Below are positions 3,801 to 39,800 of a stretch of DNA of 64,000 nt, piece after piece. The notes beneath the pieces are model-generated. The model saw only the letters and a list, made by a program, of their open reading frames with translations. It had not been told where the DNA came from and did not search any database. The stretch spans positions 34,237,501-34,301,500 of the forward strand of contig JAYKKT010000090.1 of assembly GCA_036023115.1 (NCBI GenBank), given 5' to 3'. Origin of the DNA: Brasenia schreberi. Lineage: Eukaryota > Streptophyta > Magnoliopsida > Nymphaeales > Cabombaceae. The position numbers and the translations under genes were made by a program. The first letter of the stretch is position 1. Every line of letters starts with the position of its first letter.

Positions 3801-6800
3801 TAACCATGTGGTATGCTTCAAGGCTTGTACGGTGCATACTTCATTCCATTACCACCCTAGACCAGAACTCAAGGCAGGAAAAGGTTTGCTCATGAACGTT
3901 TATGTAATTTGAGGCCCACTTTTAGTACCCATAACACAAGAAAGCATACCTGATGTGATATGGCTTCCCTTGTAAGTGATCCCTCCAGAAGCCCTGCCAA
4001 GAGGGGAAGGAAGAGCGGGGAAACAGAAATAAATTAGCTCCAGTTAGTTTAAAGAAATGCCAAATCAAAATGAACTCAAGTGACAGATTATATTGCCTCT
4101 CTCAACAGAAGAGCAGTAAAGCCACCAAAGAGACCATGACAGCGAAAAGCAAATGTCCAAATCTCTGTTCTTTACAGAACAGTGTTAGATACCTTCGTAA
4201 CAAGGGGAAGTACAATTGGAGATGTGCGAGCCATCTAAATAAATAAAACTTAGAAACTAACCTGTCTCCAAAAACGGTATCCATCCATTTCTTTATTGTT
4301 ATCACAAAATGGCGTGTAGGCAAGAGGCCGCCCTTTTATATCCATATCATACAGTTCCCCCATGTCAGCCCTCACAATTTGATCTGCATCAACAAATATC
4401 ACCTGCAAAGCTGTACAGTTAGTACGGGTAGCAAGTTCTAGACATCGTCATACCTAATATAAGCAAGCATCTATCTCTGCATGCTAGCACTAAGGACATT
4501 TTTGCAAGAAGATATCCAAATAGGTACAGGAAACAAGAGCATCATTTTAGAGAACATAGCCTTCACACCTTCTCAAGAGAAAGTGGGAAAATCACATCTA
4601 AGAATAAGATTTTGTACGCCCAGATGATTCGCTGTTTTTCTGTCTGTTTATGCAGCCAAGTAGGCCATTTGTATGTAATGAGCTCATAATCAAACCCATA
4701 CTCTCGTGCCATATGTGGTATCATGTCCTGCAAAGACAGACAAAGAATAGTCACACCATGCCAATATAAAGAACCAAAGAAATTTAACAAAGAAGGCTGC
4801 CACGCACCTTAAATTGTGGAGAAAGATAGTTCTTTATGAACCAAAACTTCAATGGTCTTTGGGTGTTCTTCAAAACACTAAGTATCATAATCTTAAGAAA
4901 ACGCTCATACCTGCACAAAGTCAGAAATGTGTGAACACACGCTCATGTAAATGAATTCAGAAGGTACAAAAGTTGGGTCTAAATTTAACTAAAACTAACC
5001 AAACACAGCGTGTTTCTGCTATTGCAAATGAATTGCCAGGAAGTACTGGTTCCACCGCAATGCAAATGTTAGCATGTTCCATGCCTTGTCTATAAGCAGT
5101 TTCATAAGTTAATTTTCACTGACATGGGTATCCCAACAACTCTATCATAAACAAGTCAAAGTAGAGTTATGGATGGGAAAATAGTAATAACAGTGGACAG
5201 AACCTCAGATCATAAATGTCAATCCACAGTTCAGAAGTGTGCCTTCAGTACTACTTAAGGTTATAGAACATGAAGATGTGATCATTAATTTCAAATTACA
5301 AGTTGTTGTAATTCGTAAGTAGCATAGCAGAAGATCAAACATAACAAAGAGTAAGAACATTCAAGAGGAAAAATGGGAGATCGAAGGCCCCCCCTCTCTT
5401 TCTCTCTTTCTTATTATCAACCTCTTAACCCTAATACAAAACATCCAACCCTTATATAATGGGCTGTAAAACAGAAAATAACCAAAATACCCTTAGTACT
5501 ACGCGCAATTACAATAATACCCAAATATTAGAAATTACAAAAATAACTCTTAAAACAGTAGATACATATATTCTTCAACACCCCCCCTCAAGTTGGGAGT
5601 GAGATACTTTGAATTCCAAACTTGCAGAAAAAATGATTCTTTCTTCACCACATGTGCATCAATGATCTTTATGAGGCTTCTTTAAATCAACTTGAACAAT
5701 CAAGAATACATGGGTAATACACGACCCTTCTATGGGTTTCGGTTACTCCGTCTCTTTCTTCTCCATGAAGTGATTAGGTGGCTGCTATCGGTGTGTTGGT
5801 TGGGTGTCCTCTCTCTACCACTCAAATAGCAAAATACACACTTGTGCTCATCCTAGTCGGTCTGTGCCCCTTCACATGGTGACTCAATCCGCTTTTTCTA
5901 GCCCTCCTTGCTGTTAACTTAGCAACTCAAGGTCTTAATCTTCATGATTTTTGGTGATACTACCACATTCCATAAGAAATAATGTATCTGCCTCTTCTCA
6001 GAGTTGATTTTCAGCATATGTAATGACAAGAAACACTGATTTTCTGCACTCTGTCTTTTTCTTCTATTTGCAATTTTGTTGTTTAACTAAACAAGAAAAC
6101 ACTTACTATGTACAAATTCATATTTTCTACATATTTTCTGAATTTTACAACACTCTTGGTTGTCTATTTTCAAGCAACCCTCTTGGCTACAACACTTTTC
6201 CAGCAACCTTCATGGCTGCAATAGTCTTCAACTCAACCTTCATGGCTGTTTATCTTCAATAGCTTCATGACTGCGATAATTTTGAACAGCTTCTTGGCTG
6301 CAACAACTCTTCAATTCAGCTTCATGGTTGTTTTTTTCAGCAGCTTTCATAATTGCAAATTTCTGTAACCTCACTGGCTAGAAATACAATCATTTCTATA
6401 ATCCTCATGACTGCAATTTCATCATCCTTAGCAACTCTTTTATGTAAACTTAAAAGAATCGGTAGATTGGAGACATTCCATCTAATATGCCCACAACTGA
6501 ACGTCGGCGCCCCTACACAACTGCCTTCTCTTTCTTCCTTTCTTCATAATGTTTTTGAACATCAAGAACCAGAGCAACATGTGCCCTCATAAGGTGCTTT
6601 CTTGACTGCACAATAAAGGAAGTAGGTCCTTTCTCCTTTTCTGGTCTTTGTAGCCAACTTGCAGTATCTACCAAATATATTGTTATTCCTCTAAACTGAA
6701 ATTGCACTCTTATTGAGTCCCTTGTCAAACCAACTTCAGGCCCCACAAAGTTCCAACACACGATCATCTTGCAGCAATGCATTCTGTAGAGTAAATTTAC

Positions 6801-9800
6801 CCACATTTGGGCGTCCTACAATTTCCAACCGTAGCTTTCTCTCATCTAGATCTCACAGTTGGGTTAATCTTTAACAGAACAACAACTCCTACCAACTTGA
6901 ATTCAAGCTAGAGATTCTATTTGTGGGAGTACTGAACAGTGGATGAGCTGTTGAAATTATGAACCCACATTCCTTAGACTTTAGTTGGCATGGTGAGACA
7001 CAATAATATAACCAGGTCCATTGGCATATGGTGGATATACTGCTTCTGGCCACTCTTTGCAGACATCTCCAAAGGCATTGATTTTACAAAGTCATATGCG
7101 GATTCAATTTCCATGCTTTTCTTAGGTTGTGAGCCAACATAAAATGAACTAAGATCATCTTGGGACGAACTTGTATCTCCACTTGGGACATCAGTCCTCT
7201 TCACCATATGCATCCCTCCAGCACCAAATATGCTAACAATACGTGGCCTTGCAGCATTTCGAACGCATTTTGTTGGGATACAACCCCAACATTAAGACTA
7301 CCAGAATCCCTTTTTCCAGAAGTTGGTGCCATTGGATTCTCAAACCTGTCATCCATGCAGTTTCCAACCGCCATACCAGAGATTGATTTTAGTTCATATC
7401 CCGTTCCATCATGCAACTTTGGCAGGTTTCTCCTCCTTTTTGATGTAAATTTTATCGACCTTATGCCCTGAAAAACTGGCAGATATTTGCTGCCCATCTT
7501 GCAATCAGTGACCTCTTCCTTTTCTATCTTTCCTTTTTCTTTTATCGTTTCCTTTCATCTTTTTCTTGCCTAAGCTGATTAATCATATCCTCTGTTGCAC
7601 CATGTCAATAGTCACCATCAAAATATGGTAACCGAGCTGCTGCCACTTTAGCTTTGCATTCACCACAAACAAAGAAATGGTCATATAATTATTTAGATTT
7701 ACAACAATGTTTTCTCTTTTTGGCTTTTCTCACCACATCGCACAATATTTGGGATGGATGGGCACACTAGGCAACTAACCACCTTCTTTTTCATCCTTCC
7801 TTTTTCTGCAGCAAGGGAAACAATTGCTAAAACCTTGGGGATTATCCTTTATGCCGTTAGTTTCTTTATCCAAATGATGACTGCAGTTACTAGCTTTCTT
7901 TCCTAAAATGGTGGGGATAATCCTTTCCTTTTTTTCTTATCCTTTCCACCAAATCAGGAAGATGATCTTCCATAACTATTTTCTGGTTTCCTTCCTCACA
8001 AAATCAGAAAAAGTAATTTTCCATGATTACTTTTCTGGTTTGCTTTTCCACAAATTCAAGAAAATAATTTGTAACTTCTTTTTTCATCATTTGAAATTCA
8101 AAAGAAATGAAATTACCTTTATCAAAAAATTCAAATATTTCTTTCTAGGATTTTTTATAAACTCTTTTGGAAAATCTAGAAAGAATGGGTCAGCCACCAT
8201 CGTCACTTTTGGAAGCACACCTTCCTTTTTCGTCTTCTTCTACCTTGAGAAAACCTTCACCCTAGGCTGCCAAACATCGGCCACTAGTTGTGGAAGGCCA
8301 CCGACTTAGCTACTCATAAAATTTATCAAATAAGCCTGCAAAAGCAGGCTTCAAATGTCCGCACACATACCACAATATTTTTGATCTTTGGTCAAGAGAT
8401 CTACTATGACTTGACCCACTCAGGAAGGGCAAGTCCTCGACCTAGCGGAGGTAAGTTAATGGGTAGTCTCACATTACCAATTTTCTTCATGGGACAATGG
8501 ACAATGCACAGAAAGCACATCACAAGATGCATGCATTTGGACTCTTGTGGATATTCACACCACTGCTCCACGTTCATCCCCCATGCCTTAGAGCCATTCA
8601 ACTGGTAGATTTCAACTCCAGCAGATTTGTCGAATCGATGACCACGTCCTGATCAACCATTCAGGTGCACAAAGAGCTCATGCAAACTTTTGTTGAGCTC
8701 ACAACGTGGCACGTTTGATTGGTTCTTGGAAATACTGCAAACAAATCCTCTGTTCGAATTGTTCGGCTTCCCCGTCCAGTGCAAGTGTTGAAGTAGGAAT
8801 CAAAGACATCTCGGACATCTTTTCCCTTTAAGTTAGGGTCTTCCTCAATATTTTCTTAGGCCACCAAGTCCGCCAAAGGCAATCAACAAATGTCTGAAAA
8901 CTGGAAGTGCGAATTCTGATGAATTGAGCACATCACCATGCTCTGAAGTTCCAATTTTGTAATCATAACCGCCCTTGAAAGGGGGACTCAGTAAATACAG
9001 AACCGATATTGGATGCATATCGAACTTTGTATCCCCAATACAGTCCCAATTCTTTTCTAGGATTAGAAGGATTAACCACTTCCAGCAAATAATTTGATTC
9101 CAATTGGTGATTGGATCCCATAGCTACTGTGACATGCCATCCCATGTTCAAGTTCCTTCCTGATATGGCTACCATTCATGTTTCTTCACATGGTGTGGTG
9201 CATCAAGAAGAAGTAACAGACCCACGAATCTTAAGCTGTTGTGTTTGGGGAAGAGGGCACGTTGCCAATATCGTGGTGTCTCTAGATACTGCAGTATTCT
9301 TATGAGAAAGGGAGCACCACCTTCTTCCTCCTCTTCCAGCTCTCATTCTCATGATGGCAGCCGTCGCCTCCGTTGGCATCCACCTTTCCCATCCCTTAGA
9401 AGAGTGTGTTGTTCCCCATCAATCGTACGACTCTGATACCATGTTGTAATTCGTGAGTAGCGTAACGGAAAATCAAACATAACAAAGAGTAGGAACATTC
9501 ACAAGAAAAAATGGGAGATCGAAAGAGGGGCAGTCCTCCAATGGAGGCTGCCCCCCTTCTCTTTCTCTCTTTCTTATTATCAACCTCTTAACCCTAATAT
9601 AAAACGTTCAACCGTTATATAATGGGTTGTAAAACAGAAAATAACCAAAATACCCTTAATATTACGGGCAATTACAATAATACCCAAATATTAGAAATTA
9701 AAAATTATCCTTAGTACTACGGGCAATTACAATAATACCCAAATATTAGAAATTACAAAAATAACTCTTAAAACAGCAGATACATATATTCTTCAACACA

Positions 9801-12800
9801 AGTGATGAGTTATTGATACCATGCTGAGCTTAGAAAGACTGAAAATAAAAACTTGATTATATCAGTATCATCTTCTGGTATTTCTCTCTCTATTATACCT
9901 CAGCTAGCAAAGGTTCCAGATGCAAAAGGGCACAGTGTCATCTTCTGGTATTTATCTCTCTGTTATACCTCAGCTAGCAAAGGTTCCAGATGCAAAAGGG
10001 CACAGTGTCATCTTCTGGTATTTATCTCTCTGTTATACCTCAGCTAGCAAAGGTTCCAGATGCAAAAGGGCAACGGTAATATTTTTACTGTTATAATATT
10101 TGTATTTTGTTAGCCAAAGTTTGTTGTACACATTTTATTTCATACTTTAGTGTCTCCAATCCCAGGTAACTGAAAAAGTGAATATCATTGTGAAAGTTAA
10201 CGTCCAAAATGCAGATGAACTCATGCACACAAACATGCACATGCAACACCAAAAACCACACTCAGTCACTCACTGAGACTACCACACACAAGGAGACAAC
10301 AAAACATGCACACAGGCACACCCATACACATGGACATACGCCTGCATGACATGGACATCATCACAACTGTGCGCATGTATAAGGCCAGACAGTTGAAGGA
10401 CATGATCACTTTCTAAAAAAAATCTTGTGAAATTCGTAACTAGTTTCTTGCACACATTTACATATCAAACTTCCATCTCAAATGTAGAATTATCTTAGAT
10501 CCACCAGAGTAAAACTCATTATGAGTATAAGAAGAAATGCATGTGATGAATTACTTACAAATGCCCAGAGGCAATTGAAAATATATTAATAGCGATTCCA
10601 TGTCTCCCAAATTTTCTATGTTCCTGCAAACCAATGGGAAACAAAATCAACATGAGTTTCCAGGAGTTGTAAAATGTTCCCAACACATAAATGGATGCTT
10701 AGTATGGGAAAAGGCTTAGTTGTTGTTGTATAAATGGATGCTTAGTAGCAGTAGAACAATCAGTAGTATGAAACTACTGCTCCTAATAGCTGCTGCTGCA
10801 CAACCGAAGGCCAGTCAGAATTTATCATGTTATGAGTCTCAGCTGGTAACAGCTCCTTGCATCATAAAATTCGTAGAAATTACACAATGGAACAATTGAT
10901 TTAGAAGAACATCAGGTATATGTACGATTACAATCATCCACCTCTCCATAAAAACATAGATACTTGAACTGATTTTATGACAATACTTTGGCACCAACTT
11001 GAACGAGGAATATGAAACTCAAAACAACAAGAATAAGTGTTGCTTACTATCATACATTCTGTTGTCACATACAATTGTTCGTAAGGAAAATGGTAACTTC
11101 ATGAAAATTTTCAACATGAATGGTATATAACGATACCGTACAGGAAGGAAGATGACATCTATGATAAGATCACAATGCTATCAGAATAAGATCATAACGC
11201 TATCAGAATATTTTCTAATTCCTTCAGCCTTCATGGATTTCAGGATTAAACTAGTGGAGAAAATAAAAAATACCAAGTCATTTACGAATATATAAGAGAG
11301 AACAAATGTTGCGTGTTATCTAGGTCATTTTTAGACCCTACACTACTTATTTCTTAAACCCAGAGTGGCATTTAGTCAAAGTCAAACAAGCTAAAGGGAC
11401 AAGAAATAAATGGATGGTTTGTCCGTTGAGCATGCGCTATATATAACATACCTGGAAAGAAACTACCATTGAGATTCTAGTCCCAAAGGCAATGGATGCA
11501 TAGCAACAATGCAGAAATGAAAAAAAGGATTGGCAGATGAAGTTAGAGTAGGACACAGATGTTACATGCACTAGTCATTTTCTTGTTAGTAGTGTTATTG
11601 GACCAAGTACGGTAATAGTGTATTCTATTCTATGCAACGGTACTGCCACTCTGTGCAAGTTTACATTCCTGAAAATTGATCGCTAAAAGTAAAGCATATA
11701 GAAAACAAACAAAAGTTTTGGGGAATTGACTTAATATTAGCCTGAACAAACTTTACCAATTCAGAGTGTAAAGGTAACCATAATAAAAGAAAATTTTGTA
11801 GGATTTCAAGGTCAAAGATCAATCAAAAAGTTGACAATATCACAAAAGAATAGTTTGGCTGATAGTTTTGATGCGCAGCCACTTGATAAGACTTAATGCT
11901 TGTTAAACAATCTCTCAACTAAATTTTGCAGAAGAGCATGGACTAATATGAAAAGATGATACTATCACAAACTTGCATGTACAGACTAACAATATCATGT
12001 CAAACATCCAAATACATAACGTTCATATGAGACCAAAATGACAATGACGGGCCTCTATCAATAAGTTGCACAAGGAATTTAGCAGGAAGGAGCATTATTT
12101 ACCCCAGAAGAAATTTGTCCCTTCTTAGAATGCTGATACCCTCCGACAAAGCCAGATGCCCACTTCATGATGTTTGCATTCCAACTGCTGAGGGTGCCCT
12201 GCCACCGATCAGACTGTAATCTTTGTATAGATTTGAACGTGATTAAAGACACTTTTTTTAGGATTCAGAACCCCATGAGTTTTATTACTGCTTTGACTTA
12301 CTTCCTTTGTTTTCTGGGCATGATCCTCCTCAGTTGCAGTTAACAATTGTTCATGTTCCTTCCCTTTCCGCTTCACTACATCCAGAAACACTACTTTTCC
12401 CCTTAGATCATCTATCACTATCTGTTTATCTGCCTGTTTATTTCCATATTCATGTCCAGCCATTGTGTATAGATCAACACTTCTGCCTGGAGCAAGCTGA
12501 AGATACCAAACCCCAGGAGAAATTTTCAGTTGCCAATAACCCAAATTAGCCATCACAATGGTGTCAACCAAGTGTGGCATGGATTTTGTTCCAAGAATCA
12601 ATTGAAGGCCCCGAGGAGGATCATGGTCTTTTTCAGAGCAATGACCTAGAGAACAAGACCCATAGGAATTACAAACTTTAAGGGGGGAAAAAGATCCATA
12701 GGAACTACAAACAATTACACATATATGCCTAATTTCTTGGAGGGAAAACAAAAAGAACAGAAATGGAGCACATGACACAAAAAATGTCCACGAAGATGAA

Positions 12801-15800
12801 AGAGACTACCAGTCAAAAGGAGGGCTTCGAGTTCAAATACAGCACGTAGTGTCCGAACATCGCCAAGGTTCTCAAGCAATATGTTATCCAAGTCATGTCT
12901 GCAAATATAAAACCCAAGATCACATTGATCTGAAACTGTTAGAAACCAAAAAGTGAGAAAAAAGTTACTGCAACTGATCTGTAGTCTAGTGTATCAAAAG
13001 AAGGTACTGCAATTAATGAAATGGCATACAATCTGTTAGAGTGTCACATACTTTATTTTATTTTCTGAGTTTTTATTTTTCCTTTTTACTTTGTTGTCGT
13101 AGCCATGGGGTTCCTTGAGCAGATACCCAACGGGTTAACTAGCCATTGGCTAGTCTTCTCTTACTCTCTTTCTCTTCCTTGTACATGTAGTAAAATAAAA
13201 ACAGAAACACGTCCCTTTGTAATACTATTTTCCCTCTCTTTGACAGGTTCCACAATAAGAATGTTTATTTATTTCTCACCTGTTCTTGATTTCCATTTTC
13301 ATTTCCTGACATGGTATCAGACCTAGAATTGCGAGGTGAGTGTTTTGGGTGGGGAATAAGAATAATGAAAAGAAATGTTAACCAAAGCCTAACATTAACA
13401 GTAGGAAACACTAGAGTTATAGGAAAACATACACAGCAATAACAGGCTCAATAAGCCATGGCTCTGGGACATCAATATTCATTGTAAGTGTTTTTGATAA
13501 TGGCATATTTGAAAAGAAGGCTTTTGGCCCAGTTATTGAAAAGTCAATGCTGCTGAAATCATCCTGCAAATAAGAACCCAAGTTTCACAGGAAGGTAAGA
13601 TAACATACGAGCCAGGAATGAGTGTGCATGTGTATGTGCAAGCATGTACTGAGGCTTGTGCACATGTACACACATGTATGTGCGTGTGTGAGCACATGCC
13701 TTTGTCTGTGTCTGTGTGTGTATATATGTGTGTTTCTGTGTGAGAGAGAGTGAGGGTGGTACCATTGATGGCACTACATATCTGTAGTAATTCTTCAGCG
13801 GAAGGTTGACAAGAGAACTCTGGAATCGGTCAAAAACATTTTCAAAATCAGTCACAAATAGTGCATCAAATATGGATTATAGAAATAACTTGTACAGCAT
13901 TGAGCATATCCTTAAGCCTCTTTTCTGAAGCCTATATCAAATATTCACTCAAAGAGAACCACCTTCCATAGAAAAATGTATTTCAGACCAATGTGTAAGT
14001 TTTTTCCATTTAGAAGATATTTAAATTAAACCATTACGCCAACCTTGCAGACAAGAAACATGTAATTTGCTCATCCTTTGTCTCTTCATCAGAAGAAAAT
14101 TACAACACTAGAGTTCCACAATACTCCACCAACTCCATTTCCTCATCCCAATAATTACAAAGTTTAAACGAGGAAACAATCAGGACGGCACAAATATATT
14201 ATGAAATCACCTAGCACAATTAGATGCATGAATCCTCTTCACGAACACATAAAGGACAATGGTAACAAAGCTTTTTGTATGATTCGTACCACTGGATTCA
14301 GCACAATTCTCATGTTTGGGTGCACAAGATTCCACAAGATACGAAGAAGAGGAGCAAGCTTTTGTCCAGAAGAGCTTAAGGGATCAATAACAGCATCTAT
14401 ATGAATGACAGAGTTCTCACTGTTCAATGTAACGGCACTGTTCACAAAACAAGGGTCAATAAGTCAAATAATCCAAAGTAAACTTGGAAGCAACAAAGGA
14501 TAGTCAGACAATCATATCCAATATAGACATAAGATGTGATTGTCAAGGATCAGTTACAAAAACTATTCAAATGCAATCTTAACCGACTAATTCACCATCA
14601 TAAATTGGTCATGTTAAAACTTTTGAGAAAAACTCCTAATGGAAAAGTAAAATTTTTCACCCATGCATGCAGTTGCTGAATGATGTGAACACTGGCATAT
14701 CTGTGTTAAGTGTTAACAACGAGACGTTTTTTACTCCAAAAATTGGTCACAGAGACACCAAATCTTTAACTTTTGGACCTACTTTTAGGGTGGTTCAACT
14801 ATTCACAAGCTTTCATTTTCCCATTGTTAATTTTATAAATCTGCTTCAAAAGCACATCTGGATGACTTTAGGATCATAAATATATGTTTATGATTTTAAT
14901 AAAATCATCAAAAGTAACCAGGCACAAAATATATATCATTGTACAGCAGATATGGCAAGCACATGCAAGCATACAAATTCTTCAAGCAGAAGAGTTTTCT
15001 ACAGAAATTTCATAATCTTGCATATGAGACTACATTTTGGAAGATCAACCAAAATGCTGCCCAAGTGAATCCGTGACGTGCCACTAAATGATGTTAGTGT
15101 TACGCTCCATCCAATCAATGTGTCCAGAAGCCATCTATGTACCCGTTGATAGTCTCATCTGTACGTTTATTACTAAGTCTCCAGTGACTTACAAAAGGTC
15201 ACATTTCTTATCAGTATAGTAAGCAGAATTTAAGAATTTTGTATTGGAAAAGGTCAAAAGATGTGTTAGGCGAATGTAAGGGATGCATACTGGCACAAAA
15301 GGTGGTGGATTGAAGTGGTGCAAGATAAGATCAAGGCAAAGAAGGCATGTTACAAATTGTATTATGCTAAGAAGACTAGTGAAATTTTGGAGGCTTATAA
15401 GAAAAGAATGACAGACTTCTTTGAAGTTAATATTGGGTTACATCAAGGATCAACTTTAAGTCCGTACTTATTTATAATGGTGATTGATGAGTTAACAAAA
15501 CATATTCAAGATGAAGTATCTTGGTGTATGTTATTTGCAGATGATATTGTGTTAGTGGAGGAGTCTAAGGAAAAAGTTAATAGAAAATTGGAACTATGGA
15601 GAGAAACATTATAAAGCAAAGGCCTCTGACTTAGTAGAACAAAGACAAAATATATGGAATGTAAGTTTGATCATCTGGTTACTTCAGAGGACCTAGAAAT
15701 TAAAAATGGCACACATTGCATCCCCCAAAAGGAAAGTTTTAAATACCCAGGGTCAATTTTTCAGAGTGATGGAAGAATTGATGGAGATGTTACACATTTA

Positions 15801-18800
15801 ATTAATGTTGGTTGGTTAAAATGGAGAGGAGCATCAAGTATTCTTTGTGATAAGAAGATACCATTAAAGTTAAAAGGTAAATATTATAGAGCAGCAATTA
15901 GACCTGTCATGTTTTATGGTTCTGAGTGTTGGGCAGTTAATCATCAACATGCACAAAAGATGTGTGTGACAGTGTGACAGAAATGAAGATGCTGAGATGG
16001 ATGAGTTGTCACACAAGAAAAGACCGTATACATAATGAGATTATTAGAAACAAATTAGGAGTGGCACCAATAGAGGATAAAATGAGAGAATATCATTTAA
16101 GATGGTTTAGACATATAGAAAGAAGATAAGAAGAACATGTAAGAAGATATGAAAAACTAAATTTGAAAAGTATTAAAAGAGGTAGAGGACAACCAAAGTG
16201 TTGGAAAGAAACAATAAAGAATGATCTAGCTTATTGTGAGCTAACGGCTAACATGACACATGATAGGGCTCTCTGGAAACAAAAAATCCATGTAGTCCAC
16301 CCTGTCTAGTATGGGAAAAGGCTTAGTTGTTGTATAAGAAAGAAAAAAAAGAAGCGAAAAATGCCGTTAGTGAAGCAAAAGCTAAAATTTGAGAAGATTT
16401 ATATAAAAAACATAACTCAAGAAATGAAAGAGATATTTTTAGGATACTAAAGCTAGAGATAAAAAAACTAAGGATCTTACTTTTGTTAGATGCATCAAAG
16501 ATGATGATGAAAAGATTCTAGTGGTGAATCATGATATCAAAAATAGATTAAAAAAAATACTTTTATAAGCTTTTTAATAAAAATACAGATGTTATTATTA
16601 GCTTAGGAGAGCTAGCCAAATAAAAAAAGTATATAAATCATACTTTCTACCGGCGTATTCAAAAGAATGAAGTAAAAGAGGCTCTTAAATATATAAAGGT
16701 TGGTAAATGTGTAGGACCAGACAATATTCCTATAGAAGTATGAAAAATCCTATGAGAGGTGGACTCACTTGACTCGACTATTTAATGAAATATGGAAAAC
16801 CCAAAAGATGTCCGAGGAATGGAGAGCAAGTACACTTATACCCATATATAAGAGAAAGAGAGATATTCAGAATTGTTTGAATTATCGAGGTATCAAGTTA
16901 ATGAATCATACTATGAAATTATGCAAAAGAATTATCGAGCGTAGTTAAGATAAGTATCATGTACAACATAGAACCAATTTGGATTCATGCCTGACATATC
17001 TACTATTGAAGCGATTCACCTATTGAGACGTCTTATGGAATATTTTAGAGCAAAAAAAAAAACCTTCACATGATATTTGTTGATTTAGAAAAGGCTTAGG
17101 ATAAGATGCCAAGAGATATTCTTTGGAGAACCTTATAAAAGAAAAATATCCCATTGACATAAATAAATCTTATAAGAGATATGTGCGATGTGCAAAAACT
17201 TGTGTGAAGACTCATGAAAGAATGACATACTCCTTTGAAGTTAATATTGGGTTATATCAGGGATCAACTTTAAGTTCATATGTATTTAAATTGGTCATTG
17301 ATGAGTTAACAAAACATATTGGTGTATATTATTTGGATATTGTGTTAGTGGATGAGTCTAAGGAAAAAGTGGAAAAAGTTAATAGAAAATTAAAATTATG
17401 GAGAGAAATGTTAGAAAGTAAAGGCTTCCAACTTAGTAGAATAAAGACAGAATATATGGAATTTAAGTTTGATCATTCAAGTACTTCAAAGGAAGTAGAA
17501 ATTAAGATTGGCACACAATGCATTCCTCATAAGGAAAGTTTTAAATACCTAGGGTCAATTTTTAAAGTGATGGAAAAATTGATGGAGCTTTTACGCATAG
17601 AACTAATGCCGGTTAACTAAAATAGAGAGGGGCATAAAGTATTCTATGTGATGAGAAGATACCATTGAAGTTGAAAGGTAAATATTATATAACATCAATT
17701 AGACTTGCTATGTTTTACAGTTCCGAGTGTTGGGCAGTTAATCATCAACATGTGCAATTGTTGCAGAAATGAAGATGTTGAGATGGATGAGTGGTCACAC
17801 AAGGAAAGACGGTATACATAATGAGGTTATAAAATCAAATTGGTAGTAGCAGCAGTGGAGAACAAAATGAGGAAAAATTGTTTAAGATGGTTTTGACATA
17901 TAGAAAGACGACCCAAAGATGCTGTCGTAAGAAGATATGAAAAGCTAGATTGTGAAAATGTTAAAAGAAGAAGACGACCACAAAAATGTTAGAAAGAAAC
18001 AATAAAGAATGATCTTGTTTAGATTGAGTTAACTGCTAGCACAGCACATGATAGGGCCCTGTGGAAAGAAAGAATCCATGTAGCTGACTCCATCTAGTAT
18101 GGAAAAAGGCTTAGTTGTTGTTGTATTGGAAAAGGTAAAATTAAGATAACTAGTTTATTGTACCTCACAGTATGAAAAGATTTGATTTTCTTAAGAATAA
18201 AATCAGGGTACTTATTACATGATAATTCATCCATAAAAATAAAGTAACTATCAAATAAAACTGATGTGTCATATGTGATCAAATTGGGTGGGTTTCACAG
18301 GTGGAGAAGCCGGTAGTAAACCACAACAAGCTGCTCCAGAAAGCAAACGAAAGTTCCTCAAGGAGCAGTGGTACAGCAGCCTGAAGCAGAGGAAAGGGAT
18401 CAAGCACCTGTAATATCCTCTTCTCCCACCCAAAGGCAGAAGTTTCTCTTGTCCCAAACCCTGCTGCAAGTAGAGGCAGACTTAAGAAGCACATTTCAAA
18501 ATTACAAAACGGTACTACCAGAAGGTTTAGGTTTAGAGCATTAGAACGTAATCCAAAATTCAAAAATTCCCTTAAGAAAGATAGATACCAACTGTTAGGA
18601 GAGTGCAGAACTCGAGTAGAAAGAGCCTTTATAGCTCCCATCAGGAAAAAGAAGATATGGCAACCTTTTTAATCAATCATGCAACAAGGTCTGTATATTC
18701 CTGTCATCTAAGACATGATACATGGGTGGTGAATGAGATATGGTGCATTTCAATCATAGCAGATGTTTGAAGGCCCTTGCACAGACCCAATTGCAAATAT

Positions 18801-27800: not shown

Positions 27801-30800
27801 GGGACGGCTGCACAGGAGAAGCCGATTTTGGGCTTAAGGCAGATTCATTGTAAGTTCTTTTTATGTTTAATAATATGAAGTTTATTCACAATATGGTATT
27901 AGACGTCCAGCGTATTCTTGAATGGAGCTGCTCTCCCTGTGATTCCGTGTTTGTCAGCCTATTGTCCGACGACTTTTCTTGACTGGCGCTGTTCTTGAAG
28001 CCTCAGTTATCCTCGCACAGCCATTGCTCCATGATCAACATTGAGGCCCTGCTCAGCGTGAATCATTTTTTCCCTACACAGCTGCACTGAATTCTTTTTC
28101 TGTTTCGAGTCTTACCATTGGCCGCCTTCATCTTCTTCATTGCTGCCTACTTATATTCTGTCAACGCTGCACCTGATTTCATTCTGTCATTGCTGCGTAT
28201 CCCCAAGCATCTCCAGGCAGTGATCATCCTTCGTAGCGTTACACTCTTCTAGTGTATGAAACTGCATATCCCCAGTAACGGACTGCCATCTTACTGAATT
28301 TTGTGGATCTGCATATTCATTTACCCTTTGATCAATTGCTTGATGGTCTGAGGCATCCTTTACCACATTGACATCCACAACCATAGTTTTGGTTACTTTG
28401 TCTTGTACCCTGCCCTTGATTTTGTTCCTTCTCATTTCGTCTTTCATTGCTGACAAGGGTAAAGGCATTGACCTTTCTTCTCGTATTGGTGAATCCTTTG
28501 GTCTCTTTGACAAACCGGACCATCTTTAGATTACCACGACTAAACTGGATGGACATAATTACATGGAATGGGCACGCTCTGTGGAACTCGCCATTGTAGC
28601 AAGGGGGAGATGGGAACATTTGATGGGTCATTCCTCCATTCCAACGCCACATGACAGTCTTTATTCTACCTGGAAAAGAGAAGATGCCATACTCTCATCG
28701 TGGTTGCTCCAGTCCATGATTTCATCCATCGCTAAAACTTTCATATTTTTAGATTCTGCCCATATCATTTGGTGTGCTGTTGCTGAGAATTATTCCCGGA
28801 AGAAGAATGTTGCTAAAGAATATGAGATTCTGGAGCGCATCAGAAAGGGCAAACAAGCCAATCGATCTCTCAGTACATACTATGCAGATCTCCATGGTCT
28901 TTGGGATGAACTCTTCTACTATACGAATATCCAGTGTTCTACTTGTTATACTGAACGACAGGTTGCGCTTGAGAAAAAGAAAGTCTTTGATTTATTATGG
29001 GGTGTAAATCTAGAATTTGAATAAGTCAAACTAAATATCTTAGGCAGAGACGAACTTCCTTCTTTGGGCACTGTTTACTCATTATTAATCAGAGAAGAAG
29101 ACCGCAGAAATCTTGAAAATGATCAGCTTCTTACTCCAGACCAGCATGCACTTCAGGTTAGAGACGACAGTTCACATTTTCGTGGCAGAGGAGGCCTTCA
29201 GAGTCGTGGACGTGGCCGTGGACGACTTACTTCAGAAGATAAAAATAAACTGGTCTTCTCCCATTGTGGTGAATCACGTCATACCAGAGATCATTGTTGG
29301 GAATTACATGGTAAACCAGATTACTATCGACCTTGCCCTCCCTCAGTCCACTCTGCAGACAGTACTCCCAGCACTGATGGCATGCAGGAGATTCTCAAAC
29401 GACTCGAGGGTCTTGAACAACGATTCTCTGAAAAACCCTCTGCTCCTCTCAACCATGCTACACTCGCTCATGCTACCCATACCATTACGGGTACTCTCTT
29501 CTCTCCTTCCACTTCAAAAACTTGGATAATTGATTCAGGGGCTACAGATCATATGGTGGGCGACTCCAAATATTTTTCCACTTACCACTCTTACATATCA
29601 GGCACCCATTAAATTGGCAGATGGTTCCTTCACTTACATGATTGGGCAGGGCAGTGTCTCTACATGTCTTTCCGATTTACCATCCGTATATCATGTTCCC
29701 AATTTCCCGCTTAATCTACTTTCCGTCAGCTCTTTAACTCATACCTTAAATTGTTGTGTGACCTTTCATCCTACTGATTATGTCTTTCAGGATCTAAAGA
29801 CAGGGAAAATCTTTGGACATGGTAAATTACAGAGAGGATTATACATTCTTGAAGACTCATCTCCGCCTTCCACCTCCTGCAGTGTCTCATCCACACCCGC
29901 TCTCGATGCAGATATTCGTCTTTGGCATTATCGTCTTGGTCATCTCCCTGTGTCCAAGATTCCATATATTGTTCCTCAGTTTCGCGTAAAATCCAATAAA
30001 TTTCAGTTCCAATGTGAAGTTTGTCAACGGGGGAAACACCAGAGGGTCTCTTATCCTTTAAGTAATTCTCGCCGATCTCAGCCTTTTGAGCTTATTCACT
30101 CTGATGTATGGGGTCCTAGTCCAATCACCTCTTTGTTTGGTCATAAGTATTTTGTATCCTTCATTGATGATTGTACTCGACTTACCATCGTGTACTTAAT
30201 GAAATCAAAGTCTGAAATTGTTTCTATTTTTCCCATTGCATAAATTTATTTCTACTCAATTCCATGCCACTGTTAAAATTCTTCGATCCGATAATGGGGG
30301 CAAATATGTTGGGACTGAGTTAGCCAAGTATCTCCAAGCCCAGGGCATCGTTCATCAGACTACCTGTCCTAATACACCTCAGCAGAATGATCTTGCTGAA
30401 CAACGGAATCGTCATATTCTAGAGGTTGCCCGAACTCTTCTCCTTCAAAGTAATGATCCCAAATTCTATTGGGGCGAAGCTGTCCTTACTGCTGTTTATC
30501 TTATAAATCGCATGCCCAGTAATACTCTTTAGGGGGAGAGTCCTATTCATACTCTTGATAAAGCCTCCAAACCTTTTCATCTTATTCCTCATCTCTTTGG
30601 GTGTACCTGCTTTGTACATATTCCTCTTCTTCATCGTGATAAACTTGATGCCAAGTTCGATAAGTGTATATTTCTGGGCTACTCGACTTCTCAAAAGGGA
30701 TATAAATGTTATGATCCCTTGCTTCAAGAACTATACGTTTCCAGGGATGTTACTTTCTTTGAACTTACCTCTTATTATTCTCCTTCCATGGAAGCTTCTA

Positions 30801-33800
30801 CACCTACTAATTGTGTCCTTCCACTAGTTCCTAGTGAGGGGGAGTATCATGAGATAGTTGAAAGTCAGAGTGCGAACCCACAGCCATCCAAAGAGATTCT
30901 GACGTACAAAAAAGGACACCGACAGATTGTGTACACTGAAGAAGATCCATGTGCTAAAGAGATTTCCCCTGAATCATATCCTCAAGTACGAGTGGACAAT
31001 GACCTTGAGATTCCTATTGTTGTTCACAAAGGTAAGCATGCATATGCAAGATATCCAATTTTTAATTGTGTGTCATATGTCAATATTTCTCAAAGCTATC
31101 AAACCTTCGTTATGAATGCTGAAAAACAAAAGATTCCTTCAAAGTTTGAAGAAGCAATCAAGTGCCCCTTATGGAAAGCTGCAATTCACGAAGAACTGAA
31201 TGCATTGGTGAAAAACAATACATGGACCATCACACAGTTGCCTTCTGATAGACATACAGTAGGATGCAAGTGGGTGTTTAGTATTAAATATAAGGTAGAT
31301 GGAACAGTGGAGAGATATAAAGCTAGATTAGTTGCTAAAGGGTACAGTCAGTCATATGGCATTGATTATACAGAGACCTTTGCACCTGTGGCTAAATTTA
31401 CATCAATCAGAATACTTCTTAGCATGGCTGACAATTGGATGTTAAGAATGCTTTCTTACCGGGAGACTTAAACGAAGAAGTATACATAGAACTACCTCCA
31501 GGAATGACCAGAAATTTGTCATCTTCTAATAGAGTATGTAAACTCAATAAAGCCATATATGGGTTGAAACAGTCTCCAAGAGACTGGTTTGATAAATTCA
31601 ACAAAGCAGTATGTAGTTTAGGATACAGCAGAAGCCACAATGATCATACCATATTCTTCAAGAAAGAAACAAAAATATTGATTCTGGCAGTTTATGTTGA
31701 TGACATCATTGTTACAGGAGATGACCTTGAAGAAATATCAAAGTTGAAAATGAACCTTCATAGATTGTTTGATATTAAGGATTTTAGATTGTTTGATATT
31801 AAGGATTTGGGCAAGCTTCACTATTTCTTGGGCATAGAAGTTCTCTACTCTAACAAAGATATCTACTTGACTCAGAGAAAATACCTAATGGATCTTCTTA
31901 AAGACATTCAAATGCTTGAATGTAAACTTAGTGACATTCCCATAGAGGTAAACCAGAAATTTTTTAATGGCGATAGTGAAGAGTTCAAAGACATCCATAA
32001 ATATCAGAAGCTAGTGGGTAAGCTTATATACTTATCCATTACTCGACCAGACATTGCATATGGAGTTGGGATTGTGAGCAGATATATGCATTCACCAACA
32101 AAAAATCAGATGGATGCAGTGTATAGAATTCTTCGATATCTCAAAACAACTTCAGGAATGGGTTTACTTTATTCGAAATCATCAAATTTGGACATTGAAC
32201 TTTATTCTGATGCTGACTGGGCAGGTTCTTATGATGACAGAAAGTCAACTACTGGGTATATTACTTTACTGGGAGGTAATATTATATCTTGAAAAAGCAA
32301 AAAACAGACAGTGGTTGCAAGATCTACGGCAGAAGCTGAATATAGAGCTATAGCCCAAGCAATGTGTGAAGGAAAGTGGATATCTTCATTGATCACTGAA
32401 TTGGGGTATTTACTTAAACATCCTATACCCTTATATTGTGATAGCAGTGCAGCAATTCAGATGGCATCTAATCCAGTATATCACGAAAGGACCAAGCATA
32501 TAGAAATCAACTGCCACTTTATCAGAGAGAAGATATCTAATAGAGAATTCCGGAGTATGTTCATACTTCCAAGCACAGGGCTGATTTTTTAACTAAAGCT
32601 AATACCAGCAAACTATTAAAGGAGACCTTATCCAAGTTGGGTGTCATCAACATTTTCCACCCAACTTGAGGGGGAGTGTTAAGGAAAGTCGTCTTGACAT
32701 GTAATGAGAGTCTAGTCATGTAAATAAGTCATGTCTTATGTTAATGTGTTATTTTGAGTCTTATGTTATCTTAGAAATAGTTAATTCTGAGTAAGGGTAG
32801 ATTAGGAAATTAAGTTAGATAGGGTATTAATAAGTGATTAGGGTTAGAAAGAAGGTTTAAGCAAGAGAGGGGGACGGCAGCACAGGAGAAGCCGATTTTG
32901 GGCTTAAGGCAGATTGGAGGAATGCCTCCAATCTGCCGTTCATTGTAAGTTCTTTTTATGTTTAATAATATGAAGTTTATTCACAATAAATACTTTAAAA
33001 AAATTCACTCTCAAGATGATTTTGTCATTCAAATTTATCTTATGAAAAGGATGACAATGCTTAAACAAGAAAATTTAAGCATTAGAGATTATCACAATGA
33101 ATTTTAAGAATTATAGACTCAACTTAGATGTTTTGATAAATTTCAAAAACTTCAAAAAAATTGATGAATTTCAAGAATTTTTGAGCAACCAATATTTCTT
33201 TTTGTTCATGTGGGGTTTAAGGGATGAATTTGAAAACATTAGATCAAACTTAATACAAAACCTAAACCAAAAGGAGACTCTTTTTTGGCCGATCTTGTCG
33301 CCTCCAAACCATGAGCAATAATGAACACCTACAAGTCTCTGCATGTGAAGAACTCCGAAGGATCAAGAGAATGAGCAAATAAAAAACCCACAAAACCATG
33401 GCCAAATAAGGACACAATATGCCATTATTGCAAGGAAAGTAGTTGTTGATGACTAATTAGTTTATGTCGTTATGTAATTCTGATCCATTAGGACCCGTGA
33501 CTAGTTATGAGAAGTCTACTATTCATTAAGGGTAGTTAAGTACATTAAGTTAGATTAGGGTTACTTAAGTAGCAGTTAGGGTTACTTAGAGGATATCGGC
33601 TGAAAGGATAGATAGAAAAGAACGGCTGCAGACTATGGCAGCAGTTCCACTTCTTTTGTACTCTCTCATTCCAGAATATTTTTGATAAATGTGATGTTCA
33701 GCTTGATGTTTAGCATGGTATCAGAGCCTTAAACGCACGCACGCTCGCCTCATACGTCAAGGTATCCCTGAAAAAGGAGTTCAAGTAAGTGGTATATTAG

Positions 33801-36800
33801 TTTATTGAAAGATTTTATGAAAAATCTGAGATATTGTAATGAAAACAAGAATGAAAGATGATATACTATAGTAAGAATGATTGTGAATCAATGTACGTGA
33901 TTTAGAAGGATTTTAATCACGATTAGGAAGACTTATATTATCTACAAGATCACAATTTGATAGTGGAACTGAATTAGACGTGAATGCATTTCTTGAATCA
34001 CGAAGAACGACAACAGAAACAGTTCAGCCGCAGATCGCATTAAGTGACTGAATCACGACTCACTGCTAAGTCGATATACTTTGTGCATATTGGAAGATAG
34101 TGTAACTGAAATTTCAGTTGCAGACAACATCTACATACCGTGGTGGCCTGTATCGACCTACCTTGAAGAGGTGTGTTTATCTACAAGAAAAAAAAATTTG
34201 TGAGATAGAATCTGCAGAAATCAGCAGCAAGGTATATATATATATATACACAAACAGCCACAATATTACTCATACTGTGTGGTATCGATTGACTTGAAAT
34301 AACTCTTTTGTATTGATCAAGTGTGATGAATCATGGAAGGAAGAATGAAAGAAGAGTCCATATCATCGATATATGGACATGATCAAAAGATGGAGCCATT
34401 TCAAGTCACAAACATTCGTTTGGATGGGAAAAACTACAGAGAATGGGCCAGATCTATTGAGTTAGTGCTGAAATCCAGAGGAAAGATTGCTATTATCAGA
34501 CAAAGTCCTCCCAGCTCAGAAGGAAACAATGCAGACTATGAGAGATGGTGGCTAATTCAATCAATGAATACCTCTATTAGTAAGACCTTCATGTACATGG
34601 ATTCAGCAGCTGAAATCTGGTCTGTGCAGTGGAAGAAGCATATTCTAGACAAAGAAACATAGCAAAAGAATATGAAATCATTGAGAGAATAAGAAAATAT
34701 CACCAGGGAACCAGAACAGTCAGCGAATACTATGGAGAACTGAGAGAACTCTGGAATGAGCAAAGATTTATTGTGGAAAACAAATGCAATCATTGTGTAA
34801 AGGAAAGAACAACTGAAGGAGAAGTCAGAAAAGTTTTTGATTTACTATGGGGAATATCATCCGAGTATGAATCAATCAAATTGAATATTTTGAGTAAAGA
34901 AGAACTTCCTTCTCTTGGAACAGTGTATTCCTTGCTGTTAAGAGAAGAAGACAGAAAGAATTTAGAGAAAGGTGATCATATACAAACTGAAAAATCTGCA
35001 TTCATTGGTAGAGGACAAAATAATTACCAGAGAGGGAGAGAATCCTTTAGAGGCAGAGGAAGAGGAAGGAATCAGAACTACGATGATAGAAACAGAGTAC
35101 AATGCACTCATTGTGGAAAAAGAGGACATGCTCGAGAGTATTGTTGGGAAATTGTAGGGAAACCACCAGAACATAAAATCTATGGCAAGAAACCCGCAGA
35201 TTACAAAGAGTATGGTAGCCAAGCTGCAACAGTGTCTGAGAAGAAATCTGAAAAGAATCCTTTAGATGAGATGGCAGATTTGAAAAACAACTTACAGAGA
35301 TTGAAACCAGACTACGGGATCAACCCTTGACATCTTCAGCAAAGACAAAAAAATTAAGTCCTCCTACTTCTTACAGTGTTAGTGGTAATTACACCCTCAA
35401 AGGCTCTACTGCTTTCTCAAACTGGATTATAGATTCAGGAGCTATCGATCATATGGTAGGGAATAAATCCGATTTAATGCAATATGAATTGATTCCTAGT
35501 CCTCAATATGTAAAAGTAGCAAATGGTTCTTTGATTCCAATGGAAGGAAAGGGCATAATTCAGAGAGGAAATCTTCAGCTTAACTCAGTGATATATATTC
35601 CAGATTTTTCAGTAAATCTACTTTCAGTAAGTTCATTGGTTAAAGATATGAATTGTACAATTACTTTCTCTTCGTCTGGCTGTGTCTTTCAGGATCTGAA
35701 GACGGAAAAAATCTTTGGTCATGGTGAGCTACGGGATGGACTATATATCTTACCTGGAGATCTGAGGCAGAGAAGGAAGTTGACAACGAGTACTATAGCA
35801 GAAGAAATAAAGATTTGGCATTGCAGATTAGGACATTTGCCAGTTCAAAAATTAAGAGAACTTGTTCCTTTTTTTATTCCTAGTGATGTGATTATTAAGT
35901 GTGATGTATGTCAGACAGCAAAACTTCATCGAGCTACATTTCCTAGTAGTGACTCAAGATCAGTTGCTCCTTTTGAATTGATACATTCTCATGTTTGGGG
36001 ACCATGCATGATACCTTCAATTGGAAAATTTAAATATTTTGTTACTTTTATTGATGATTTCTCAAGACTTACCTTTGTTTATCTTATGAAATCTAAGTCA
36101 GAGATCTCTTTGATATTTCCTCGAGTTCATAATCTTATAAGGACTCAGTTTGGTTATACTGTTAAAACTCTTAGATCTGACAATGGTGGAGAATATTGTA
36201 ATACACAGTTGGACTCGTATCTCCAAGCTCACGGTATCATACATCAAACTTCATGTGTTTATACACCACAGCAAAATGGAATAGCAGAACGGAAGAATAG
36301 ACATATCCTGGAGATTGCTAGAACTTTACTTATTGAACACAATATTCCAAAATATTTCTGGCCAGATGCAATACTCACCGCAGTATATATTATGAATAGA
36401 GTTCCTACAGTGACTCTAGCAGGAAAATCTCCATTTAAGATGATTAAACCTGAGGATAACTCCTTTCATTTGATTCCCAGAATATTTGGATGCGTGTGTT
36501 ATGTGCATATTCATTCCCAATTCAGAGATAAGTTCGATCCAAGAGCAATAAAATGCATTTTTATTGGATATTCATGTGAAAAGAAGGGATATATTTGTTA
36601 TGACCCTAATTCACATAGAAGGTATGTTTCTATGGATGTAACCTTCTTCGAGACGACTCCATTCTACCAGAATTCCAATGAAATATCTAACTCCATTTTT
36701 GAAGAAACAGTTGTTTTACCATGAATTGGTGTGGATGAAGAACTAGAGGAAGCACAGATGGATCAACGAAAAAAAGAAGAAACCAGAATACAGGTATACA

Positions 36801-39800
36801 GAAAGGGAGAGAGAAATATCTTTATGAAGAAACAAAATAAGCATTAGAAAAGAATAGAACCCGGGAGTTTGTTGTTTTGCTTCGAGGGGAAGAAACCAAA
36901 ATTGGGTGCAAGTGGGTGTATACAAGTAAAGTATAAGGCCGATGGGTCAATAGAGAGATACAAAGCAAGGCTGGTTCACCAAAGGTTTTGGCTACACAAA
37001 CTTATGCGGGATTGATTACTGTAGAGACCTCTTGCTCCGGTTGCAAAGATGAATACAAACCGGTAATATTATCTCTGCGGCCAATTATGGTCGGGAATTA
37101 CAACAATTTGATGTAAAGAATGCTTCACAAGTTACATATGAATGATGGTGCTGAAAAAGTCAATACAATTAAATATCAACAACTGGTAGGAAAATTGATA
37201 TATTTGACTATTACACGTCCAGATATAGCTTATGCTGTAAGCATAGTGAGTAGATTCATGCAATCACCATCAAAGAATCATATGGATGTTGTGTTTTATA
37301 TATTGCGATATTTAAAGACAACCCCAGGATATGAGATTCTTTACACTTCCAATGGTCACACAGATGTTGAGATCTATACAAATGCTGATTGGGCAGGATC
37401 AAAACAGGATAAAAAGTCCACTACTGGATATTTAGCACTGATTGGGAGCAATATAGTATCTTGGAAGAGTAAGAAACAATCAGTAGTAGCACGATCGACA
37501 GCAGAAGCAGAATACAGGGCAATAGCATCAGGTATATGTGAAGGAAAATGGTTGCGATCATTATTGCAAGGAAAGTAGTTGTTCATGACTAATTAGTTTA
37601 TATCGTTATGTAATTCTAGAATAAGTATAGTATGTCAAGTTGAGTTACTTTGTAACACGGGTCCTAATGGATCAGATTCTGATCCATTAGGACCCGTGAC
37701 TAGTTATGAGAAGTCTACTATTCATTAAGGGTAGTTTAGTACATTAAGTTAGATTAGGGTTACTTAAGTAGCAGTTAGAAAAGAACGGCTGCTAACTATG
37801 GCAGCAGTTCCACTTCTTTTGTACTCTCTCATTCCAGAATATTTTTGATAAATGTGATGTTCAGCTTGATGTTTAGCAGTAGTCATATTAAAACCATTTT
37901 TCCTCTTCTTCGAAAAAAATATGAAAACATAGGAGCCGTAGAGGATAAAGATAGAGGAGCTTTGCCTACCAACATCAAAGCATACATAGAAAAAATGTTC
38001 AAAAACAAGGCAAGCAATTTCAAAAATGTTCTCTCCACTTCTCAAGGTATGTCTTGGTTCTTAGACTAAGTGTTCCTTTTCATATGACTCATTAGGATAA
38101 ATCTTTAAACAATTCTCATGATATCTTTAGAAAACATGTGTTTACGATCGATGACACAAAACTTTAAATTAAAAAAATATATAATTTAAAATTTTAAAAA
38201 GTAAGCTCTATACCTAAACTTAATTTAAACTTCCTATCAGTTGCTCAAATTTCTAATAATGACTCTATAATCACTTTCCCATCCAATAATTTTATGGTGC
38301 AGGATCACTTATCGAATAAGGTGATTGGTCAAGGTCAAAGAGGAAGTGGACTATACAAAATGGAATGTTTACCTATGCCAAATTTTGAATCTTCTAATGT
38401 ATCCCATGATGCTACACTTTGGCATAAATGACTTGGACTTATTGATAGGAATGAACTATATAATTTTCCTTTGTTGAAAAAAAATTAAAGAACAAAAATT
38501 TGATTATAAAGGATGCGTTCTTGAAAAAATACATCACCTTCCTATTGGAGAAAGAAATTATGGACCAAGCAAAGCTTTTGAATTAATACATTCTAATGTA
38601 TAGGGTCCTGACTCCATTGTTTTTAAAGGAGGAGTTCAATATTTGTAGATGATTTTACTCGCTTTACTTAGTTATACCTTTTAAAACACAAATCGGAGGT
38701 ATTTGAAAATTTTATAATCTTTTGCAATATGGTCAACTCCGCCCACGTAAGGGATCCGGTCCCAAGCCCAGATAAAGGAGGAGGGTTGTGTTAGGCTTCC
38801 GATAGCCAGTGTAAAACTTCGTCGGATTTTTTTAACATGGATTACAAAAATTATAAGCATTGCTTTGGGGCGTTCCCGCCAAGCGACATGCTGCAGAGCC
38901 CGAATGCAGTAAGAAGTAAGCAAGGGCCACTACATTTTCGCCCGAATGTAGTGAATCAATTGCAGAAAGGGTTCCCACATCATGGACAGATGTGGGTAAA
39001 GAAGTTAGTCCCGCTACATTGCCGCCCGAATGTAGTAAATAATTTTCATAGAGGATCTCTGTATTCTGATTATGGACGGATACGAGGGGTAAGGAAGCTA
39101 GTCCTAGATAATAAGATTCGTATTGGTTCTTGGAATATAGGAACATTATCCGGTAAGCTAATGGAGGTGGTAGATACTATGATTCGGAGAAAGATTCATA
39201 TTCTATGTTTACAAGAGACAAAATGGGTTGGAGAAAAAGCAAAGGAGATAGAGGATTCAGGTTTTAAATTATGGTACTCAGGTAAAGAAAAGGCTCGAAA
39301 CGGAGTTGGTATTATTATAAATAAGGATTTAAAGGAGAGTGTAGTAGACATACAATGATATGGTGACCGAATCATGACGTTGAAATTAGTGTTAGGAGCA
39401 TAGGTTTTGAATATAGTTTGTGCTTACGCACCCCAAGTAGGACTAGAAGATAGTATAAAGACAGTTTTTTGGGAAGAGTTAGATAAGGTGTTTCAAAAGA
39501 TTCCACAAAGGGAGATGATTTGTTTAGGAGGAGATTTAAATGGACATGCCGGTAAAGAGGCATTAGGATATCAAGAGATTCATGGAAACTTTGGTTTTGG
39601 GGATATAAACAAGGAAGGTAGGGAGATTTTAAACTTTGCTATGGCATTTGATCTCTTTATAGTCAATCCAATTTTCAAAAAGCGAGATGAACATTTAATT
39701 ACTTATAAGAGTGGCTTATCACAAACACAAATTCATTACTTTATTTGTAGAAAAAAAGATAGAGCGTGTTGTAAAGATTGCAAGGTAATTCCAAGAGAAA

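Follow-up and report, generated by a model that had tools for sequence, protein, structure and literature searches.

Pieces of at least five host genes in a decayed LTR retrotransposon of Brasenia schreberi, probably copied from spliced mRNAs

In this work, we have analysed a stretch of 64,000 nucleotides from Brasenia schreberi (assembly GCA_036023115.1, contig JAYKKT010000090.1, positions 34,237,501 to 34,301,500 of the forward strand), here called the window, which contains a long terminal repeat (LTR) retrotransposon filled with pieces of unrelated host genes. Searches of the host genome (1.055 Gb, 92 contigs) make it very probable that this element is a copy of a modular LTR-retrotransposon family, and that its interior was built by reverse transcription switching onto spliced host mRNAs and back. 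The element, its parts and the intron that holds it are as follows, in window positions (C and L numbers are our labels for contigs and loci):

5304-9798, minus strand: LTR retrotransposon, whole, 4,495 bp
9799-9803, no strand: target-site duplication CAAGT, right copy, a perfect match to the left copy, the two flanking the element exactly
9442-9798, minus strand: 5' LTR from the LTR alignment, ends TGTTG...CAACA
9430-9441, minus strand: primer binding site, type TGGTATCAGAG, directly inside the right (5') LTR
8400-9397, minus strand: mRNA piece of a SPOUT1/C9orf114-type methyltransferase, reaching from around the start codon into the 3' untranslated region (3'UTR), frame broken, nine parent segments
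7725-8268, minus strand: family middle module (backbone), common to L021, L022, L023, L025, L026, L027 and L032 at 66-83%
7527-7735, minus strand: piece of HAC1 (p300/CBP-type histone acetyltransferase), from inside a single parent exon
about 7060-7507, minus strand: EAF1-like (HSA/SANT protein) piece, with a similar exon at C92:40.84 Mb
6923-7058, minus strand: GALT2 hydroxyproline O-galactosyltransferase piece, from tblastn
6560-6836, minus strand: EngA/Der second G-domain piece, from tblastn, one intron precisely absent
5591-6563, minus strand: family 3' module (backbone), same starting base in six relatives
5582-5590, minus strand: polypurine tract, adjoining the left (3') LTR
5304-5580, minus strand: 3' LTR from the LTR alignment, ends TGTTG...CAACA
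5299-5303, no strand: target-site duplication CAAGT, left copy, from the LTR alignment
4911-10558, minus strand: intron of the host UGGT gene, GT donor at 10558 and AG acceptor at 4911

The element has both sets of hallmarks of its class, namely direct LTRs with TG...CA ends and a short duplication, and a primer site with a polypurine tract. Its LTRs differ by 18 substitutions over 277 aligned sites, and in the alignment the 5' LTR has in addition a 55-nt internal duplication and a 25-nt stretch missing from the 3' LTR. We take the primer site, which is the same or nearly so in 11 of the 12 relatives compared (the exception is L022), to be of the Met-tRNA type, and we assume that this type and the 5-bp duplication are as in Copia elements, the sole basis of our Copia assignment. 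No gag or pol family was detected at E<=0.1 in the three sense frames of the interior (the antisense frames were not scanned), nor therefore a pol with the Copia order of domains (integrase before reverse transcriptase), and on this content the element is predicted to be non-autonomous. The search for further LTRs of the family elsewhere in the window found none, and the LTR pattern had 0 matches in viral contigs. All captured pieces are in sense relative to the element, with frames interrupted by stops and shifts, and the longest stop-free stretch of the interior (142 codons) is on the opposite strand. The insertion is old as judged from the LTR divergence of 0.069 (Kimura two-parameter, 277 sites; 0.065-0.134 in the 11 relatives measured), any date depending on the assumed rate. 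The window copy is a long-dead, decayed element.

The SPOUT1 piece was identified by PF02598 (E value 3e-25 in one raw frame and 1.1e-57 on the joined reading). It matches nine consecutive segments of its parent gene, which are spread over 22.2 kb of C92 (22,533,000 down to 22,510,793) and are contiguous in the element (query 45-122, 118-220, 219-287, 285-348, 349-469, 467-548, 546-617, 615-695 and 695-800). Five of the eight joins fall at GT-AG sites of the parent, and at the last of these the first 11 nt of the parent exon are missing. Another join is compatible with a GC-AG intron of ~79 nt. The first join is a jump of ~470 nt at a 5-nt match, off the splice sites. At the third, an apparent exon near C92:22,525,200, which we presume to be one from its resemblance to plant SPOUT1, is omitted and an AG inside the next exon is used, as in alternative splicing. 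Since the similarity extends past the stop codon to 8400, the end of the stretch compared, the 3'UTR was captured too. A paralogue on C89 also matches in part. As one contiguous piece it was seen only in the window copy, and in none of the other 24 of 25 genome matches (16 of 16 candidates scored).

The EngA/Der piece matched eight plant proteins by tblastn at 1e-32 to 2e-29 (5.2e-39 on the joined reading; best 40 of 439 candidates scored in the genome search), and a parent intron of ~730 nt, bounded by GT and AG, is missing from it exactly. The contiguity of the SPOUT1 parent segments and the exact loss of the EngA intron indicate that these two pieces came through spliced mRNA. The HAC1 piece gave 4e-16 by tblastn on raw DNA with a Magnolia protein and, on the joined reading, 1.1e-21 with 78% to Magnolia; one raw frame matched p300 (0.0012). 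Its exon alone is matched at 88% in three genome places, one of them a HAC1 gene at G000:C90:34412700-34413900 (L058), ~112 kb past the window end. For GALT2, tblastn gave about 1e-11 with five of six proteins and 8e-9 with the sixth (7e-4 on the joined reading), and a longer GALT2 piece is present in the relatives L022 and L026.

The remaining piece resembles, at 77% over 440 nt, an exon with a long open frame at C92:40.84 Mb. Upstream of that exon lies an HSA domain (PF07529, E value 1e-4, 22.9 bits against a cut-off of 23), and EAF1-like is the name we presume to be suitable for this HSA-domain gene. The stretch itself had no match in Pfam or NCBIfam and chance-level matches in PDB (best E value 0.063). 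Nothing of its own came from three protein searches, in which the matches listed (at least 120 in two of them) were those of EngA, GALT2 and HAC1. A 200-bp part of it (query 373-624) recurs in eight further genome places at 71-74%, more than one parent gene predicts.

An earlier note on this DNA, made from its letters alone, had described the LTR pair, the CAAGT duplication, the primer site and the polypurine tract, and had seen in the interior no retroviral coding sequence and sense fragments of SPOUT1, HAC1 and EngA/Der. The structural features are borne out by the LTR alignment and the sequence, and the lack of gag and pol by the sense frames described above. The protein comparison that it proposed gave significant matches (Pfam, tblastn) and, together with the parent-gene DNA, confirms the three fragments well beyond chance. 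Its count of at least three captured host genes was correct and too modest, the number being at least five with GALT2 and the EAF1-like piece. We correct its limits of the fragments to about 9397 to at least 8400 for SPOUT1, 7735-7527 for HAC1 and 6836-6560 for EngA. Intron loss, which it had put forward as the sign of capture through RNA, is exact for EngA and holds at most joins of SPOUT1.

The involvement of related elements was explored by an LTR search of the genome, which gave 47 matches (best 40 of 3,217 candidates scored), the top 20 representing the window element and 15 other elements. The relatives were picked by LTR similarity and 14 of the 15 were taken whole, L019 at C75:7389271 being omitted. 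They share LTRs and partly the middle and 3' modules, yet they differ from one another, and their measured spans are 1.95-7.7 kb, some with nested insertions. Target duplications are exact in L022, L023, L025 and L031, agree at four of five bases in L026, L027 and L033, and are not clear in L028. L021, located at G000:C55:11247500-11255000, is rearranged: it has three consecutive LTRs, with a polypurine tract ahead of the first one, in a tandem or nested arrangement. Host-gene pieces were found in 12 of the 14 relatives, and two or more genes in five of them (L026, L029, L030, L031 and L032), with the following cargo:

L021 and L027: protein kinase
L022: GALT2
L024: pinin
L025: thiolase
L026: GALT2 and HECT
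L028: tubulin
L029: NPH3 and DYW
L030: HVA22 and DUF1218
L031: DCD, NPH3 and a weak PPR (0.0023)
L032: GALT2, EngA, an EAF1-like stretch and a weak Ras (2.8e-4)
L034: Snf7 (3.5e-5, under the Pfam cut-off)

The orientation of the cargo was compared in 21 hand-bounded stretches of these 14 relatives, read in 63 sense and 63 antisense frames (Pfam, E<=0.01). Twenty families appeared in the sense frames and one marginal family (0.0025) in the antisense frames. Among the 20 are one reverse transcriptase, from a LINE-like (long interspersed nuclear element) insert in L025, and several overlapping kinase or PPR models. In searches with single frames, eight of a first set of ten gave a family (the kinase under the Pfam cut-off), one gave none and one a chance-level match; four of a second ten gave a family, and one frame of L028 had no PDB match. 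The segments of the EAF1-like stretch of L032 are seemingly out of parent order, as though the copying of an mRNA had taken two jumps (translations, by eye). Two long extra segments in 3' modules were rejected as cargo, as they were recognised by eye as a nested LINE (3.0 kb, L022) and a hAT-like transposon (3.2 kb, L023). A 3.1-kb sequence with a long hAT-like protein (by eye) is nested in or near L023, L027 and L034, with 90-93% identity.

Intron loss extends beyond the window copy. The thiolase piece of L025 corresponds to eight ordered parent segments over 6.9 kb of C87 (best 40 of 119 candidates scored), and the HVA22-type (first) and DUF1218-type (second) pieces of L030 to six ordered segments over 1.9 kb of C58 and three over 2.1 kb of C61, respectively (best 40 of 1,232 candidates scored). 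In the elements these segments adjoin, mostly with small overlaps and with gaps up to 8 nt. Adjoining parent segments and intron loss therefore point to RNA-borne capture for five genes in three elements.

Several captures are shared by descent: the kinase of L021 and L027, a 440-nt block in L029 and L031, and the GALT2 piece of L022, L026, L032 and the window copy. Six further places have the EAF1-GALT2 block (C75, C73, C90, which is L032, C16, C77 and C88), in all six with EngA next to it among the candidates scored; the search that gave the block scored the best 40 of 112. The HAC1 piece also adjoins the middle module's end at C39:3138756 and C82:3482345, and partly at C92:3.45 Mb. The C39 and C82 matches end where the EAF1-like piece starts, and these two places are presumably other family copies that have HAC1 with a different continuation. 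The last ~45 nt of the HAC1 piece open the matches at C75, C86 and C74. Since the block and HAC1 are shared and a contiguous SPOUT1 piece was seen only here, the window copy looks like a lineage combination plus one further capture. The earlier note had asked for other copies and for the same fragments within them: such copies exist, with LTRs and backbone modules in common, and the fragments recur as the EAF1-GALT2-EngA block (six places) and as HAC1 (few); no contiguous SPOUT1 piece was seen again among the matches. That the relatives, too, carry captured host genes goes beyond what the note had noticed.

The element lies within the host UGGT gene. UGGT exons on the minus strand are found to its left (PF18404, E values 2e-25 and 2.2e-27) and to its right (PF06427, 1.9e-31), and the donor at 10558 and the acceptor at 4911 therefore place it within a single intron, oriented as the gene is. 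The same intron holds, just outside the element, a tandem repeat of three 70-bp units, 96% alike, at 9863-10072. Elsewhere in the window, the stretches 38944-41992, 43449-45191 and 15403-18122 are 83-96% like the LINE nested in L022. By eye, long frames mark two Copia-like coding elements at 28530-32292 and 34614-37578, with no LTR of the family studied here beside them.

How could such an interior be assembled? Reverse transcription would leave the element RNA at short matching stretches, copy spliced cellular mRNAs and return. In the order of minus-strand synthesis, the 3' LTR and 3' module would be followed by EngA, GALT2, the EAF1-like piece, HAC1, the middle module, SPOUT1 and, at the end, the leader with the primer site. 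The SPOUT1 mRNA would have been alternatively spliced and copied from its 3'UTR to the start-codon region. Captures may have accumulated on top of one another in several rounds, with some shuffling between copies of the family. The switching would have taken place between RNAs co-packaged in virus-like particles from a putative autonomous partner. Two junctions bear on this proposal. The 3' module, which begins at an identical base in six relatives, overlaps the end of the EngA similarity by 4 nt (GATG), and the HAC1 parent and the middle module of L025 share about 7 nt at their junction; both short matches, as judged by eye, fit template switching by reverse transcriptase. As far as sequence comparison can establish them, the RNA origin and sense orientation of the cargo, the stacking of captures and the reuse of backbone positions are demonstrated.

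Other origins have to be weighed. Processed pseudogenes made by LINEs could have landed serially in an LTR element and been copied along with it: the cargo is intron-free where tested, LINEs are present (the one nested in L022 and the reverse transcriptase match in L025), and A-rich purine stretches lie in the middle module and close to where the HAC1 piece ends. However, independent insertions would give both orientations, and the identified cargo is in sense (20 families versus the marginal one). Six copies start the 3' module at the same base, the two inspected junctions have short matches, and no long poly(A) run was seen by eye at cargo ends (target duplications around the pieces were not searched). 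We regard this origin as unlikely. A functional chimeric protein for which the element would be kept, as proposed for the maize element Bs1, could be suspected from pieces that lie in sense within an intron read in the same direction, but it is very improbable given the broken frames, a longest stop-free stretch on the wrong strand and an LTR divergence that marks the element as old. Pack-MULEs and Helitrons also carry pieces of several genes, yet DNA-level capture of genomic fragments of their kind is refuted by the absence of introns from the SPOUT1, EngA, thiolase, HVA22-type and DUF1218-type pieces; the element has, moreover, LTRs, a primer site and a 5-bp duplication, and we give this explanation virtually no credence. 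The notion that the pieces are flanking genome between LTRs from two separate insertions deserves equally little, being refuted by the perfect 5-bp duplication and by the same cargo and backbone elsewhere; the true flanks are the UGGT intron. Such separate insertions, and a lack of matches to the three families, were the outcomes that the earlier note had named as fatal to it, and neither occurred. Its interpretation, multi-gene capture by an LTR element, is supported.

Several points weigh against capture by template switching. Two junctions were inspected, by eye and with no comparison with chance, and splice sites were inspected for the SPOUT1 and EngA parents only. The HAC1 piece is uninformative on intron loss because it lies within one parent exon, and the GALT2 parent gene was not located, so the evidence of intron loss in this copy concerns SPOUT1 and EngA. 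No host gene was accepted for L033 or for L023, whose sole match was an IQ motif at 0.013, and no 3' LTR was found for L032 in the 9.9 kb examined (G000:C90:11152000-11161900). An autonomous partner did not come to light, and gag and pol were not sought in the antisense frames of this element or in the relatives' backbone modules.

With these points taken into account, we still hold capture from spliced mRNAs to be the best explanation of the window copy. For the family as a whole, most of the relatives examined carry host pieces, so it appears to collect them repeatedly. We think it reasonably likely that the family is a serial collector of mRNAs, with a fixed backbone whose cargo positions are refilled by template switching with spliced mRNAs of the host, all of those seen being in sense. 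Its copies would become chimeras, often of several genes, in which captures are inherited, stacked and reshuffled (GALT2 alone; EAF1-GALT2-EngA; HAC1; all of these plus SPOUT1 in the window). The family would thus be a reverse-transcribing counterpart of Pack-MULEs, without a gene of its own. If this is true, the copying of cellular mRNA by reverse transcriptase can be, in a plant, a routine and not an accidental route to exon shuffling. A family with many captures lets the mechanism be tested by sequence within one genome, through junctions, choice of mRNA, isoforms and order of capture. We speculate that filler keeps non-coding elements at a well-packaged length.

Gene capture by plant LTR elements has been described before, and LTR elements that hold pieces of host genes are common. 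Abnormal template switching between packaged RNAs has been described in plant LTR elements (PMC13317346). Captured genes were counted at 672 in rice and 1,343 in sorghum (PMC3726574). A survey of maize found 425 gene-carrying LTR elements from at least 189 captures; it reports under its conditions no single element with pieces of more than one standard nuclear gene (PMC2774510), in contrast to the five genes of the window copy. Capture by the LTR elements surveyed mostly concerns one gene per element, the exceptions in these sources being Bs1 and two soybean elements. In the open literature searched, with subscription papers mostly outside its scope, we found no description of a comparable family.

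Bs1 has segments of three unrelated host genes (PMC13317346), exons only (PMC4717578), and the chimeric gene that it forms is reported to be transcribed and translated (PMC13317346). The window copy is similar in having pieces of several unrelated host genes, exons only (with intron loss for SPOUT1 and EngA). In contrast to Bs1, it has five genes with broken frames, and its family varies in cargo from copy to copy. Among 30 gene-carrying soybean TRIMs (terminal-repeat retrotransposons in miniature), two hold exons of more than two genes, in intron-free pieces (Gao 2016, PMC4717578), and the non-autonomous GmaRetroS15 has exon-only pieces of three genes with 5-bp duplications (PMC4717578). Gene-carrying TRIMs measure 1.2-1.4 kb (PMC4717578), whereas the window element, at 4,495 bp, is beyond TRIM size. 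Its family also differs from them in that the backbone forms separate modules, a copy can combine as many as five genes, and 12 of the 14 relatives have cargo. Pack-MULEs, Pack-CACTA elements and Helitrons also hold captured host-gene pieces, acquired at the DNA level (PMC13317346, PMC4717578), and Pack-MULEs contain both exons and introns (PMC4717578). Unlike Pack-MULEs and Helitrons, in which genomic DNA lies between terminal inverted repeats or Helitron ends, the window element has LTR ends and lacks the introns, with capture through spliced RNA. Set beside these systems, it is an extreme variant of multi-gene capture, larger than was claimed earlier.

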